Source of the DNA: Lachnospiraceae bacterium
Lineage (GTDB): Bacteria; Bacillota; Clostridia; Lachnospirales; Lachnospiraceae
Assembly: GCA_017624235.1 (NCBI GenBank)
Contig: JAGANL010000035.1
Span: forward strand, 1-50,207
Direction: 5' to 3'
Length of the DNA: 50,207 nt
The notes beneath the pieces were generated by a model, which was not told where the DNA came from, made no database searches, and saw nothing but the letters and a program-made list of their open reading frames with translations. Below are positions 3,682 through 8,428 of this stretch, in pieces. A program made the position numbers and the translations under genes. Position 1 is the stretch's first letter, and every line of letters begins with the position of its first letter.

Positions 3682-5136
3682 TTACATTCTGCCGTTCCCC
3701 TTCTGCTTAGCCGGATGCTCTTTGGAGGGAACGGCATCCGGCAGTCTGAGCCGGAACAGCCTGCGACAAAGCTTTTTCCATTCAAACGGTATCAGCGGAT
3801 AAATATAGCTCTCTCCCGATACGGTACGGTTGGACACAATCGTACCGATCAGAATCAAGACTCCTGCAAGGTATCCCCACACGTTGAAAAACTGTGTCAG
3901 CAAAAGGGTCAGCATACGCATAAACTTCAAAGCATACCCCAGTTCATAATTGGCCTGTGTTGTATTGGCAATCGCTACAAAGGCCATATAGAGCATTACT
4001 TCACTGGAGAACCATCCGCTTTTGACCGAAAATTCTCCCAGCACCAGAGCCGCCATGACGGAAAGAGGCGTATTGAGCATATTCGGTGTATTGACTGCCG
4101 CAAGTCTCAATCCGTCCAGAGCCAGTTCAATCAGTAAAAACTGCCAGACTACCGGAATATTTGGCGGCTCCTTTAGCAAAATGAAGGAAAAGGACTCTGG
4201 AATCCACTGCGGATTATGAATCAGCAGCAAAAAGGTAGGGGTCAGGAAAAAGGTCAGCAGGGAAATTAAAAAGCGGGACATTCTCAAATACGTTCCCGTA
4301 ATCGGCGGAAAATAATAGTCATCCGCTTCCTCAATCACATCAAAGATGGACGTAGGTGTAATCATAGCCGACGGGGAATTGTCCACCAGAATGATAATAT
4401 TGCCCTCCAGCACCTGGGCCGCAGCCGTATCTGGCCTTTCCGTAAATTTAAATTTTGGAAAAGGATTATACCACTTTTTCCGATACAGACACTCTGCCAG
4501 GCTTTCCTGATTCATCGTCAAAGCATCCACCTGAATCTCCGATATCCGGTCCCGTATTTCCGCAAGAAAGGACTGGTTCACCCTGGAATCCATATAGCAG
4601 AGCACAATATCCGTTTTGGAGGACTTTCCCGCTCTTAACATCTCCATTCGGAGGTCTTCGCTTCGGATACGTCTGCGGATCAGTGCCGTATTAAAAACAA
4701 TGGTTTCCACAAAGCCGTCCTTGGAGCCGCGCAGCGCCTTATCTTTCTCCGGTTCTGAAACACTCCTTGACGGATAGGTTCTGGAATCAATCAAAATGCA
4801 CTTTTCATATCCGTCGATAAACAGTGCCAGTACGCCTGACAAAATATTATAGGAAATCTGTTCCCAGTCATCCGACAGATCCATCTCCACCGTAGGCACA
4901 AAGCCTTTGGCCATCTCATGTATATTCTCCGGCATCTCCTCTGCCTTCAGATCCAGAAAATACTGCAACATCTTCTGCATCATTTCATCCTTGCAGAAGC
5001 CGTCTATAAAATAGTAGCAGGCCTTTCTTCCTCCTACATGTATGACACGGTATACCAGATCAAAGCTTTCCTCCACGTGCATATGCTCTGATAGATACTG
5101 CATCGTTTCTTCAAGATTACTGGTCATTTTTTCCAT
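3682..5136 (-). CDS. spoVAF: GerA-family spore germination protein, SpoVAF-like
   Basis: GerA-family inner-spore-membrane protein of 484 residues, close to SpoVAF length. The N-terminal ~280 residues are soluble and carry FVETIVFNTALIRRRIR, SKTDIVLCYMDSR and NSPSAMITPTSIFD. About five hydrophobic segments follow between residues ~285 and 450, then a basic C-terminal tail. These motifs resemble B. subtilis SpoVAF more than GerAA. SpoVAF forms an ion channel that amplifies germinant-driven ion release. No spoVA or gerA partner genes are adjacent, so it stands alone, as is common in Clostridia. Its Shine-Dalgarno GGGAG lies in the 3' arm of the upstream terminator, and a sigma-G-like promoter sits just before that arm. 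A GerAA-like role remains possible. Confidence 0.85.
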   Translation of the reverse strand: MEKMTSNLEETMQYLSEHMHVEESFDLVYRVIHVGGRKACYYFIDGFCKDEMMQKMLQYFLDLKAEEMPENIHEMAKGFVPTVEMDLSDDWEQISYNILSGVLALFIDGYEKCILIDSRTYPSRSVSEPEKDKALRGSKDGFVETIVFNTALIRRRIRSEDLRMEMLRAGKSSKTDIVLCYMDSRVNQSFLAEIRDRISEIQVDALTMNQESLAECLYRKKWYNPFPKFKFTERPDTAAAQVLEGNIIILVDNSPSAMITPTSIFDVIEEADDYYFPPITGTYLRMSRFLISLLTFFLTPTFLLLIHNPQWIPESFSFILLKEPPNIPVVWQFLLIELALDGLRLAAVNTPNMLNTPLSVMAALVLGEFSVKSGWFSSEVMLYMAFVAIANTTQANYELGYALKFMRMLTLLLTQFFNVWGYLAGVLILIGTIVSNRTVSGESYIYPLIPFEWKKLCRRLFRLRLPDAVPSKEHPAKQKGNGRM

Positions 5137-5138
5137 GC

Positions 5139-5185
5139 AAAAACTCCCTTCCGGACACTTTTTTCTTACTATGTCCGAAAGGGAG
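5139..5185 (-). terminator. Intrinsic terminator of nrdD-nrdG-dut, overlapping the spoVAF RBS
   Basis: Minus-strand RNA forms a 14-bp stem (5' arm 5185-5172, 3' arm 5157-5144) with a single G-U pair and a ~14-nt A-rich loop. UUUUU (5143-5139) follows immediately. The 3' arm ends in AAGGGAG, the only plausible Shine-Dalgarno for spoVAF at 5136. Confidence 0.85.
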
Positions 5186-5197
5186 CCTTTCTATACA
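5167..5197 (-). promoter_or_regulatory. Sigma-G/F-like forespore promoter for spoVAF
   Basis: On the minus strand TGTATA (5197-5192) and CATAGTA (5173-5167) are separated by 18 bp. This matches the known forespore pattern of about TGAATA / CATNNTA. Transcription would start near 5160, inside the terminator loop, so the transcript would lack the hairpin's 5' arm. The call is by pattern only. Confidence 0.5.
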
Positions 5198-5223
5198 TCC
5201 TGCTCTCTGTTTAACAATCCGGC

Positions 5224-5655
5224 TTATCTGGTGCCTGTGCTGCCGATTCCGCCTCTGTCCGGCCCTTCCAGCGCTTCCACCTCTTCAAAGGCAATTTCCG
5301 GCTGGTTTTCCATAATCCTGAACTGACAGATTCTGTCATTGCATGCAATTTTCGTATCGCGCAGCGCATAGACCGGCATATACCACTGGTCATTGTCCCC
5401 ACAGTAGGAACAGTCAATCACTCCCTGATGGTTCGTTTGAATGATTCCAAAGTTTTTAAAGGTAGAGCTTCTCGGAACAACATGTGCCTCATAGCCCTCC
5501 GGGAGCTGCATGGCCACACCAAGCGGAATCAGCTTAAACTCTCCGGCCTTCAGCTCAATATCCTCAGCCGCACGCAGATCGATCCAGTCTCCCTTTGTGA
5601 TTTTTTCCAGCTTTTCAATTTTGTCCGTAAAATATTTGATCCGAATAGTCTTCAT
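5224..5655 (-). CDS. dut: dUTP diphosphatase (dUTPase), trimeric type
   Basis: Hydrolyses dUTP to dUMP and pyrophosphate, keeping uracil out of DNA and supplying dUMP for dTMP synthesis. The 143-residue protein shows the five trimeric dUTPase motifs in order: IDLRA near residue 26, PRSS near 62, [10 protein letters not shown] near 79 with the catalytic Asp, RICQFRI, and the C-terminal RGGIGSTGT that closes over the active site. The nrdG stop codon TAA is immediately followed by the dut ATG, so the genes are probably translationally coupled. Pairing with the anaerobic ribonucleotide reductase makes sense, because both act on nucleotide triphosphates. It is the last gene before the 5139-5185 terminator. 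Confidence 0.92.
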
Positions 5656-6165
5656 TTATTCATAATCTCCGCAATGTAATATCGGAATACTCCTGTCCTC
5701 CTGCTTCAGGCTTGCCTGTACATCAATGACCCTCTGATTGGAGCTGCCCTTCCACAGAAGCTTCGTATCCTTTTTATCTATTTCAAATTCTCCGTCCACC
5801 AATACATCCACATACTGTAAGATGGAATCGTTTTTCAGATTCTCCCAGATATCTCCGGTGTAAAGCCAGATGGTCTTTCCCGGATATTTTGCTTTGATCT
5901 CTTCCATCAGCTTTCTGACACCGCTCCGGTTTGCACTGTGAAGCGGATCACCGCCGGAAAAGGTAATTCCGGAAATGTAATTCTGATCCAGCTGTTCAAA
6001 AATTTCCTGTTTGGCTGCCTCATCAAAAAGTAGTCCACCATTGGGGTCCCAGGTAATTGGATTCTGACATTCCCTGCAGCAATGGGAACATCCTGCTACC
6101 CAGAGTACGACACGCAGTCCGTCTCCGTTTAACATATCATCCTTTGTTATATTGTGGTACCTCAT
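5656..6165 (-). CDS. nrdG: Anaerobic ribonucleoside-triphosphate reductase activating protein
   Basis: Radical-SAM activase that uses a [4Fe-4S] cluster and S-adenosylmethionine to create the glycyl radical on NrdD. The 169-residue length is normal. The cluster-binding CX3CX2C motif is visible as CSHCCREC near residues 26-33, followed by QNP and the GG(D)P-type SAM motif in FSGGDPLH. NITKDDMLNGDGLR at the N-terminus is typical of NrdG. It starts 2 nt after the nrdD stop and runs directly into dut, forming a tight nrdD-nrdG-dut operon. The enzyme works only without oxygen, which fits an obligate anaerobe. Confidence 0.95.
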   Translation of the reverse strand: MRYHNITKDDMLNGDGLRVVLWVAGCSHCCRECQNPITWDPNGGLLFDEAAKQEIFEQLDQNYISGITFSGGDPLHSANRSGVRKLMEEIKAKYPGKTIWLYTGDIWENLKNDSILQYVDVLVDGEFEIDKKDTKLLWKGSSNQRVIDVQASLKQEDRSIPILHCGDYE

Positions 6166-6167
6166 GT

Positions 6168-8354
6168 TTACATGCTCTTCCTTTCTGCTATTTCGGCCAT
6201 TTTAGCATCATTGAGCCTGGTGTCTCCATGTACTCTGGAATAGGACAGATAACCGTTCATACGGTCAATCTTTGTCAGATTGCGGCTTCCGCATTTCGGA
6301 CATACATCCATTTCCAGCTCCTGATGACCACAGTCATCACAATAAGCCAGTGACAGATTCACACCTTCATAGTAACCCAGATCCATGGCTCTGCGGATCA
6401 GTGTTTTGATGGCCTCTTTATTATAATCAATCGGATATTTGACATACTGAATTTTACCGCCGTTTAAAAGCTCCCAGAATCGTCCTTCCAAATCCTGCTT
6501 CTGAATCGGTGTAATATCTTCTGTCACATGGCAATGGAAGCTGTTGCTGACATATTCACGGTCAGATACTCCTTCGATAATGCCGTATTTTTTACGGAAC
6601 TGCTGCACCTGCAATCCGCAGAGATTCTCTGCTGGAGTACCATAGATGGCATACAGATTTCCGTCTTCCTCCTTAAATTCATTGATCTTGGCATTGATAT
6701 GCTCCATAACCTCCAGTGCAAAGGCACCATCCTCTACCAGCGATTTGCCGTTATAAAGCATCTGCAGTTCATTTAACGCGGTAATGCCAAAGCTTGCCGT
6801 AGCGCTCTTTAAAATCGGCTTGATCTTATCGTGCAGTCCCAAATGACCGCCTAAAAATCCACCCTCACAATAGGCCAGCGGATTCGTAGACGCACGCATC
6901 TCTCCCAAATATGCATAGGTACGGATATGCAGATTCCGAATCAGATTCAGATAATAATCCAGTACCTCATAAAAATCCCGGCTCTCCTGTCTGGATTTTG
7001 CCAGAATCATAGGCAGATGCAGGGACACTGCTCCAATATTGAAGCGGCCTACAAAAATCGGTGTATCCTGATCGTCCGCCGGATGCATTCCACCTCTTTC
7101 ATACCAAGGGGAAAGAAAAGCACGGCAGCCCATCGGAGAAATGATTTTTCCATACTGCTTGTACATGCTTGCAATATAACCCTTTCCGGTCAGGGACAGC
7201 CAGTCCGGATACATGGTCTTTGCAGAGCACTCCACTCCGGCCTCAAATACGTCCTCTAAAGGCTTACCCGGCCCATGCAGGTTCTCATCGTATAAAAAGA
7301 CGATTTTCGGAAACAGCACCGGCTTCTTGCACTCGGCCTTTCCCTGTCCCTTTCTGCGGACATTCAGCATGGAAATGGTTGCCAGCTTTGCAAAACGTCC
7401 TGTTCCCGTTCCTGCTGTCACCGTAATAAACGGATAATCTCCCCGGCTGGAAGCCACGGTGTTAAATTTATATTCCCAACCCTGAAATCCCTGCTCGTAC
7501 TCCTTTACCACATCCTCATAAGCTTCTTTTTCAGCTCTTTCCTGATCCACTCCAAGAGCAATATATTTCTCTACATACCTTTTGTAGGACTTTTCCGCAT
7601 AAGGCTCCAGAATCAGATCCACACTCGGCACGGTAAAACCGCCATACTGCTGGCTTGCAGCGCTGAGCACGATGTCTCCGATGACATCAAAGGCAACATC
7701 CAGTGTCTTCGGTTCATTGTACCAGATATTTCCCATCTCGAAACCGCCGGTCAGGACATTCTGCACATCAAACAGGCAGCAGTTCATCGTATCTCTTCTG
7801 GCAGACATATCATGCACATAAATATAACCGTCACGACAGGCCTGAATCTCTTCCGTCGTCATAAAGAACTTCTGATACAGCTCCTTGTTGAGCTGATTGA
7901 AAATCAGGCTCCGCTTCGTGGATACCAACGCAGAATCGGTATTCGCATTTTCCTTGTCTCCAATATACATGATAGACTGGCTCTTTTTATAAACATCATC
8001 CAGCATACGCACAAAATCCTGTTTATAATTCCGATAATCCCGGTAGCTTTTGGCTACGATCGGTTTTACATCCTCCAGAGCGCTCTCCACAATATTGTGC
8101 ATAATCGGAATCGGAATCTCATCCTGATCCAGCTCGTCCACTTTATCAATCACATATTGGCAGATATGGCGTTTTTCCGCCTCTGTAAACTTGGTCAGAG
8201 CGCGATATGCGCTTTTTCCAACTGCATTGATGACCTTCTGCACATTAAATTCCTCTTTGCTGCCATCCTTTTTTACCACCATCACAGGCCGTTTTACCTG
8301 AAACAGCTTTCCATAATCCGTTGTATCTGCTGTCGCATTTGTATCGAATGCCAT
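6168..8354 (-). CDS. nrdD: Anaerobic ribonucleoside-triphosphate reductase
   Basis: Class III ribonucleotide reductase, 728 residues from the chosen start. It reduces ribonucleoside triphosphates to deoxy forms using a glycyl radical and formate. An ATP-cone allosteric domain is recognisable at the N-terminus (VKKDGSKEEFNVQKV). The C-terminus has the zinc site CDDCGH...CPKC and the glycyl-radical segment MNGYLSYSR, with Gly near 701. The open frame extends 15 codons further upstream to 8399, but GGAGG lies correctly in front of the ATG at 8354. The longer version would also start inside the NrdR box and has no ribosome site. The upstream region holds a strong promoter with two NrdR-like operators. 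Confidence 0.96.
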   Translation of the reverse strand: MAFDTNATADTTDYGKLFQVKRPVMVVKKDGSKEEFNVQKVINAVGKSAYRALTKFTEAEKRHICQYVIDKVDELDQDEIPIPIMHNIVESALEDVKPIVAKSYRDYRNYKQDFVRMLDDVYKKSQSIMYIGDKENANTDSALVSTKRSLIFNQLNKELYQKFFMTTEEIQACRDGYIYVHDMSARRDTMNCCLFDVQNVLTGGFEMGNIWYNEPKTLDVAFDVIGDIVLSAASQQYGGFTVPSVDLILEPYAEKSYKRYVEKYIALGVDQERAEKEAYEDVVKEYEQGFQGWEYKFNTVASSRGDYPFITVTAGTGTGRFAKLATISMLNVRRKGQGKAECKKPVLFPKIVFLYDENLHGPGKPLEDVFEAGVECSAKTMYPDWLSLTGKGYIASMYKQYGKIISPMGCRAFLSPWYERGGMHPADDQDTPIFVGRFNIGAVSLHLPMILAKSRQESRDFYEVLDYYLNLIRNLHIRTYAYLGEMRASTNPLAYCEGGFLGGHLGLHDKIKPILKSATASFGITALNELQMLYNGKSLVEDGAFALEVMEHINAKINEFKEEDGNLYAIYGTPAENLCGLQVQQFRKKYGIIEGVSDREYVSNSFHCHVTEDITPIQKQDLEGRFWELLNGGKIQYVKYPIDYNKEAIKTLIRRAMDLGYYEGVNLSLAYCDDCGHQELEMDVCPKCGSRNLTKIDRMNGYLSYSRVHGDTRLNDAKMAEIAERKSM

Positions 8355-8381
8355 ATCTCCATCAACCTCCAAAAATATATA

Positions 8382-8428
8382 CCACATTTTGTTGTGCATA
8401 TACCAGTATATGCTACAACATCTTGTAT
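8382..8428 (-). promoter_or_regulatory. Tandem NrdR-type operator boxes upstream of nrdD
   Basis: The distal box (8413-8428) is built on the perfect inverted repeat TACAAGATGTTGTA. The weaker proximal box (8382-8397) reads GCACAACAAAATGTGG on the minus strand. Box starts are 31 bp apart with 15 bp between them, the spacing reported for paired NrdR sites. NrdR is the (d)ATP-sensing repressor of ribonucleotide reductase genes. No nrdR gene is in the window. Confidence 0.7.

Follow-up and report, generated by a model that had tools for sequence, protein, structure and literature searches.

A terminator-like hairpin that overlaps the forespore-type promoter and ribosome site of a spoVAF-like gene in Lachnospiraceae

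In a 50,207-nt stretch of DNA from a Lachnospiraceae bacterium (contig JAGANL010000035.1; hereafter, the window), a putative terminator, the Shine-Dalgarno (SD) sequence of a spoVAF-like gene and a forespore-type promoter are laid over one another, and this overlap is confirmed. We consider it probable that the element combines termination of upstream transcription with a lock on translation, from which RNA begun at the internal promoter would escape. The sequence itself shows how the element is built, how it is predicted to fold, that it is conserved and covaries, and which promoter motif it holds and in what geometry; the start site, the termination, the silencing and the sigma factor are what we infer from this. 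A preliminary description of this locus had already read the hairpin as both terminator and lock, and the comparisons below support that reading.

Anatomy and predicted folding of the element

The element lies in the 87 nt that separate the stop codon of dut from the ATG of a gene of the GerA family on the minus strand. Profiles give the GerA family only, and the name SpoVAF is our own presumption. The features, in the order of transcription, are as follows:

6168..8399, minus strand: nrdD (TIGR02487)
5656..6165, minus strand: nrdG (TIGR02491)
5224..5655, minus strand: dut, the upstream gene (PF00692)
5197-5192, minus strand: -35 box TGTATA, sigma-F/G type (128 family loci gave the motif tGnATA)
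5191-5174, minus strand: spacer of 18 nt between -35 and -10
5185-5172, minus strand: 5' arm CTCCCTTTCGGACA, the anti-SD (from folding and covariation)
5173-5167, minus strand: -10 box CATAGTA (learned consensus CATACTA)
5171-5158, minus strand: hairpin loop
5160, minus strand: predicted transcription start, in the loop, 7 nt past the -10 (from the motif)
5157-5144, minus strand: 3' arm TGTCCGGAAGGGAG (from folding)
5144..5150, minus strand: SD AAGGGAG of the spoVAF-like gene, in the 3' arm
5139-5143, minus strand: T5 run, which would serve as terminator U-tract and also forms part of the spacing between SD and ATG
5136-5134, minus strand: ATG of the spoVAF-like gene
3682..5136, minus strand: spoVAF-like gene (GerA family, 484 aa; PF03323, E 5.9e-142)

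Read along the minus strand, the gap contains TGTATA, 18 nt, CATAGTA, a 9-nt A-rich stretch, TGTCCGGAAGGGAG, TTTTTGC and ATG. CTCCCTTTCGGACA, which occupies part of the promoter spacer and the first two bases of the -10 box, is complementary to TGTCCGGAAGGGAG and gives a 14-bp stem with one G-U pair; as the preliminary description stated, AAGGGAG lies wholly within the 3' arm. A stable stem followed by a U-run is the anatomy of an intrinsic terminator, with the qualification that the run in the window is merely TTTTTGC (T5), many relatives having richer runs of T6-T7. The 26 nt from the dut stop to the -35 box contain no T-run, which leaves no place there for a further intrinsic terminator. 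A terminator scan restricted to loops of 3-8 nt did not list the window element. At the gathering score Rfam gave no match in the window, and two sub-threshold matches (E 0.11 and 0.31) fall at 4900-5400.

Sigma-G promoters have a GNATA-like -35, a spacer of 17-18 nt and a CATACTA-like -10, and their motif overlaps with that of sigma-F. Motif learning on the 128 family loci yielded tGnATA and CATACTA, spaced as in sigma-F/G promoters, and 97 of the 128 score above the 95% shuffle level (this being the same set from which the motif was learned). The window promoter scores 9.0 and shows the sigma-G-type pattern of -35, spacer and -10, its -10 being one base off the learned consensus. The boxes and the spacing first proposed as a sigma-G-like promoter stand; the promoter appears to be of the sigma-F/G type, and sequence did not separate the two factors.

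As RNA, the element is predicted to fold at -32.2 kcal/mol; none of 200 dinucleotide shuffles is as stable (z -5.2). The U-run pairs with the A/G-rich stretch ahead of the stem, which in RNA lengthens the stem to about 20 bp. The predicted cost of freeing AAGGGAG is 17.1, 16.4 and 16.2 kcal/mol in RNAs starting at 5197, 5230 and 5300, respectively, against 2.3 kcal/mol in RNA starting at 5160, in line with the folding first envisaged for the two RNA forms. In the longer RNA the SD is thus predicted to pair with upstream sequence, as in a lock on a promoter-embedded ribosome-binding site, and by its motif the promoter would start RNA 3' of the 5' arm. The short form retains some structure: opening the whole stretch from the SD to the AUG takes 7.1 kcal/mol, an RNA starting at 5163 has a folding energy of -6.5 kcal/mol, and the SD core keeps a pairing probability of 0.58 after the RNA is cut at the predicted start.

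Conservation among spoVAF loci

Of 299 family genomes searched at the protein level, 132 have a relative at E 1e-100; 128 upstream regions (L001-L128), the window's own included, form the family sample. A second, named sample holds the best 80 of at least 508 confirmed loci, labelled almost wholly as Lachnospiraceae. After removal of 6 duplicates from 208, 202 loci were kept, 6 of which had no scored SD and were left out. We call a locus locked if its SD is paired upstream with a probability above 0.9; the strict test asks for the lock, its position in the spacer, a promoter and a T-run. Controls were open frames of at least 200 aa, not confirmed genes, from which spoVAF had been removed by blastp.

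Among 74 distinct named close relatives (from the best 80 of at least 508), 62 have a locked SD, compared with 4.0% of SD-keeping shuffles; of the 122 family loci that have an SD, 28 are locked (7.3% of such shuffles). The strict test is passed by 77 of the 202 spoVAF loci, with a median hairpin of -23.3 kcal/mol; the locus of Eisenbergiella tayi (L159), a cultured species, belongs to this class. Among the control frames, 3/147 are locked, 0/147 pass the strict test and 6 have a promoter call; before the blastp step the set comprised 153 frames with 8 locked and 5 strict, and all 5 strict ones were spoVAF genes. The lock fades with falling N-terminal identity to the window protein, from 70/88 at 60% or more through 17/65 at 50-60% to 3/43 below 50%, which places the element mainly in one part of the family. 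The layout is labile among spoVAF relatives: a tree of the 202 proteins requires no fewer than 27 changes of the locked state.

Calls at the margins go both ways. The strict test excludes ten of the 87 locked loci, some of which are chance hairpins. Of the 74 named loci, 13 are not called locked, and four of these (L146, L148, L201 and L208) resemble the element and miss a threshold. The long loop of L003 (Parablautia intestinalis, identical in sequence to L130) was missed by 85-nt folding and found by a covariance model. At L198, another locus not called locked, an insert apparently sits in the loop of the element upstream of spoVAF. An exact pattern was also tried as an element finder and rejected as too narrow: in 200 family genomes it gave 22 rows (21 places) in 19 genomes, none of them the window's own, against 0 in all 200 rows of the backward control, and several of its matches have vegetative-looking boxes.

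The geometry first proposed for the window, with transcription starting inside the loop, holds among its relatives as far as the motif locates the start. Of the 87 locked loci whose hairpin reaches -12 kcal/mol or below, 84 have a promoter call. The predicted start falls 3' to all SD partners in 84/84 of these, and the promoter spacer contains the SD complement in 77/84. In shuffles with a paired SD the corresponding counts are 277/379 and 106/379. Cutting the RNA at the predicted start lowers the mean SD pairing in the 84 loci from 1.00 to 0.42, to below 0.5 in 54 and to 0.5 or above in 30.

The two arms also vary together. In a set of 17 dissimilar elements, the mean pairing energy of an element's own two arms is -20.3 kcal/mol, compared with -12.7 (sd 0.94, best -17.1) in 20,000 random re-pairings, and the own 3' arm is the best partner in 8/17. 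In a MAFFT alignment of 24 elements, two-sided changes occur at 9/14 pairs, a level that 0/500 shuffles attain; they fill 33 cells versus 11.3 in shuffles, and shifting the partner by one column halves the covariation score. It should be noted that the controls for both re-pairing and covariation remove relatedness only in part.

The lock also varies with the orientation of the upstream gene. With 11 of the 202 loci left out for want of a clear upstream gene, 84 of 152 loci with a codirectional upstream gene are locked, versus 2 of 39 with an opposed one; in the family sample alone the counts are 25/87 and 1/31. In the one-per-genus set, 62 of the 87 loci whose neighbour is codirectional have no lock. 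Correction for the tree leaves an association that is suggestive only: among 12 well-supported independent pairs, 5.2 are for it, 0.1 against and 6.7 show no difference (median p 0.06). A comparison across relatives had been proposed at the outset, and it came out in favour of the element on four counts, namely pairing of the SD with the promoter spacer, a predicted start beyond every SD partner, covariation of the arms and preference for a codirectional upstream gene.

Recurrence before other genes

The preliminary description tied the element to spoVAF, to which it is not peculiar: it also precedes spoVT, spoVAD, cotJ, spoIVB-like, cwlD-like and further genes. A covariance model built from 24 spoVAF elements gives 68 bits at the window site and 28.2 bits at the next best site in the window's own genome, where 150 of 1674 candidates were scored. 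Matches occur in at least 88 of 299 family genomes (E 0.001) and at least 50 of 295 order genomes (E 0.0001); these counts are lower bounds because only 17 candidates per genome were scored, and the matches favour promoters since promoter letters lie inside the model. The non-spoVAF matches, being selected by the model, are no measure of how frequent the element is. The lock counts for spoVAF, for the gene-wise tests and for the 46 spoVT loci below are independent of the model.

Among 40 of the best non-spoVAF family matches, 34 have an open frame that starts no more than 12 nt from the model end. Products over the curated cut-off are SpoVT (L230), SpoVAD (L252) and, in another family of the order, SigG (L281); SpoIVB (L223, 256 of 305 bits) and CwlD (L260, 173 of 222) fall below it. 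Other products are a CotJA-CotJB fusion, a ClpP-like protein, DUF1779, a YetF domain, YdcZ, enolase, lactate/malate dehydrogenase and rubrerythrin. A six-member family of about 61 residues has no profile match (scanned in L217) and presumably resembles CotF-like coat proteins. Of 46 family and order loci one lacked an SD and was dropped; in 37 of the 45 scored, the SD complement lies in the spacer of the called promoter, and the 8 exceptions include three transposases and L281, whose promoter falls below the line. A sigma-factor gene (L267) was dropped as a case, its start lying 51 nt beyond the element.

Gene-wise tests took the 30 best matches each for sigG (of 58), spoVT (of 54), spoVAD (of 57) and spoIVB (of 56), with 1, 0, 1 and 2 loci, respectively, dropped for lack of an SD. 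Locked and strict loci number 8 and 3 of 29 for sigG, 14 and 8 of 30 for spoVT, 2 and 1 of 29 for spoVAD, and 0 and 0 of 28 for spoIVB. Promoters were called in only 9 spoVAD and 4 spoIVB loci, so many of these may lie inside operons; single members of both groups do carry the element. In a larger count of spoVT (46 loci, 1 of 47 having been dropped for lack of a motif), 20 are locked, versus 9.6% in shuffles; L353, whose start differs between the two spoVT counts, is unlocked in this one. The element thus recurs clearly at spoVAF and spoVT and moderately at sigG, and it is rare at spoVAD and spoIVB. In the window's own genome the SD of spoVT is partly paired (0.80, below the lock threshold), and inspection by eye found no obvious element at sigG, spoVAD or spoIVB.

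Several individual loci deserve mention. The second-best match in the window's own genome (L210, C16:203633-203684, minus strand) is a hairpin with T6 immediately ahead of the ATG in a gene for a subtilase-family (S8) peptidase, with a codirectional frame of 500 aa directly upstream. At L281, a hairpin and T-run precede the start of sigG, with a codirectional frame upstream, an arrangement that recalls spoIIIG of B. subtilis. Enolase-like genes at L221, L247 and L263 have a forespore-type promoter and a lock, which hints at a spore-specific enolase. L294 and L297 share a hairpin of the same build with a vegetative-looking TATACT in the loop, before genes with similar N-termini and the look of membrane proteins; from these two, the lock design may not be limited to sporulation. 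Transposase frames of the Mutator/IS256 type (L244, L250 and L254, the family being shown for L254) stand behind a similar SD-hiding hairpin that has no sigma-G-like box by score, and the repeated model matches in genomes G014, G269 and G127 may be of the same kind.

Proposed function, alternatives and known parallels

The proposed element would be a compact insulator of about 60 bp in which three functions are combined. RNA coming from nrdD-nrdG-dut would fold the hairpin, and much of it would end at the U-run; in any RNA that passed the U-run the SD would be paired and the message left untranslated. In the forespore, RNA polymerase with sigma-G (or sigma-F) would initiate in the loop. Such RNA would lack the 5' arm, so the hairpin could not form and transcription would not terminate, and a free SD would be presented a few bases before the ATG.

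The main rival of this combined function is a terminator alone. On that account genes are closely packed, the upstream gene's terminator overlaps the next ribosome site, and the SD pairing is an unselected by-product. At least four T within 8 nt after the SD are indeed found in 82/87 locked spoVAF loci, versus 32/109 unlocked ones; the -35 of the strict class lies a median of 16 nt from the upstream stop, and a terminator that near the ATG would force the promoter inside it. In the strict class a terminator-like hairpin stands 3' of the -35 at 63/75 loci and a separate one before the -35 at 1/75, which makes the element, where present, nearly always the sole candidate terminator. However, in unlocked codirectional loci such a hairpin lies 3' of the -35 in 11/55 and a separate one precedes the -35 in 12/55, so that the overlap of terminator and promoter is not forced; some relatives place an ordinary terminator ahead of the promoter instead. 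In addition, the T-run is missing from 5/8 locked sigG loci and from 8/20 locked spoVT loci, the latter indicating that the lock is not merely a by-product of termination. A lock can exist without a T-run at spoVT and sigG, and at spoVAF the two are fused. We regard a terminator alone as unlikely.

These lock-only forms, together with the short T5 run of the window, would also suit the converse explanation, which is that the U-run is too weak to terminate and read-through is frequent but silent. Such a pure translation lock is considerably less probable still, given that locked spoVAF loci have a T-run after the SD far more often than unlocked ones and that a second terminator before the -35 has no room in the window and occurs in just the one strict locus above. 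We give yet less credence to an inverted repeat that acts as a DNA operator for a forespore regulator at the promoter: symmetry over spacer and ribosome site would, on general knowledge, suit a dimeric protein too, but the letters of the arms vary under preserved complementarity, the loop varies in length, and the 3' arm of the model coincides with the SD. Finally, a G/A-rich SD pairs easily with any C/T-rich stretch, and some locked calls are such cases (e.g. L049 and L060, which fail the strict test); as an account of the element chance is the least credible, with shuffles locked in only 4-7% and the control frames almost never.

The principle of a lock that RNA from an internal promoter escapes is already known from T4 gene e and has been proposed for spoIIIG of B. 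subtilis. In the leader of T4 gene e (lysozyme), the SD is sequestered within a helix of the long early transcript, for which a 100-fold reduction is cited, and late promoters placed shortly before the ribosome site yield transcripts that lack the 5' part of the structure and are well translated; soc, 49 and I-TevI are grouped with this leader (PMC3014915). The likeness to the window element lies in an SD hidden in long RNA and free in RNA from an internal promoter; the differences are that these are phage genes read with another sigma factor, and that the part of the source used here mentions no terminator in the structure. For sigG (spoIIIG) of B. subtilis, a hairpin of 20+ bp is proposed to block translation of read-through RNA from spoIIGA-sigE, and it cannot form in RNA from the gene's own promoter (PMC5942855). 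Here the match is closer, since a sporulation gene is blocked in read-through RNA and free in its own-promoter RNA; unlike the present case, with several genes and a fused T-run, it is a proposal for one gene, and the part of the source used here mentions no terminator role. The hairpin reportedly goes back to Masuda et al. 1988. In IS10 and IS50, read-through RNA hides the ribosome site of the transposase; we found no statement of this protection in the literature searched. L244, L250 and L254 are alike in that a hairpin hides a transposase ribosome site, and the spoVAF element differs from such cases, which concern mobile genes and, at these three loci, have no sigma-G-like box.

What is new here is the fusion with a terminator and the recurrence across forespore genes; a literature search, most subscription papers lying outside it, found neither a terminator fused with a ribosome site and a forespore promoter nor recurrence through a regulon. 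Whether this amounts to a rule on the scale of the regulon, in which many forespore promoters of Lachnospiraceae and, in part, of sister families use their own spacer as anti-SD arm, often fused with a terminator, is a tentative proposal to which we give not quite even chances. If the rule is true, a forespore gene would be translatable only when its RNA began at its own sigma-F/G promoter; promoter identity would then be checked at the level of RNA, and the sporulation programme sealed against leakage from close-packed neighbours. Because it can be recognised in sequence, the element could assist the prediction of forespore genes where bacteria are difficult to culture; it also suggests a compact genetic part for expression that must not leak. 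If the proposed mechanism is true, it would extend the single-gene proposal from B. subtilis to a repeated design and show how a compact genome silences a developmental gene against read-through, with termination, translational silencing and escape by promoter choice in one element of about 60 bp.
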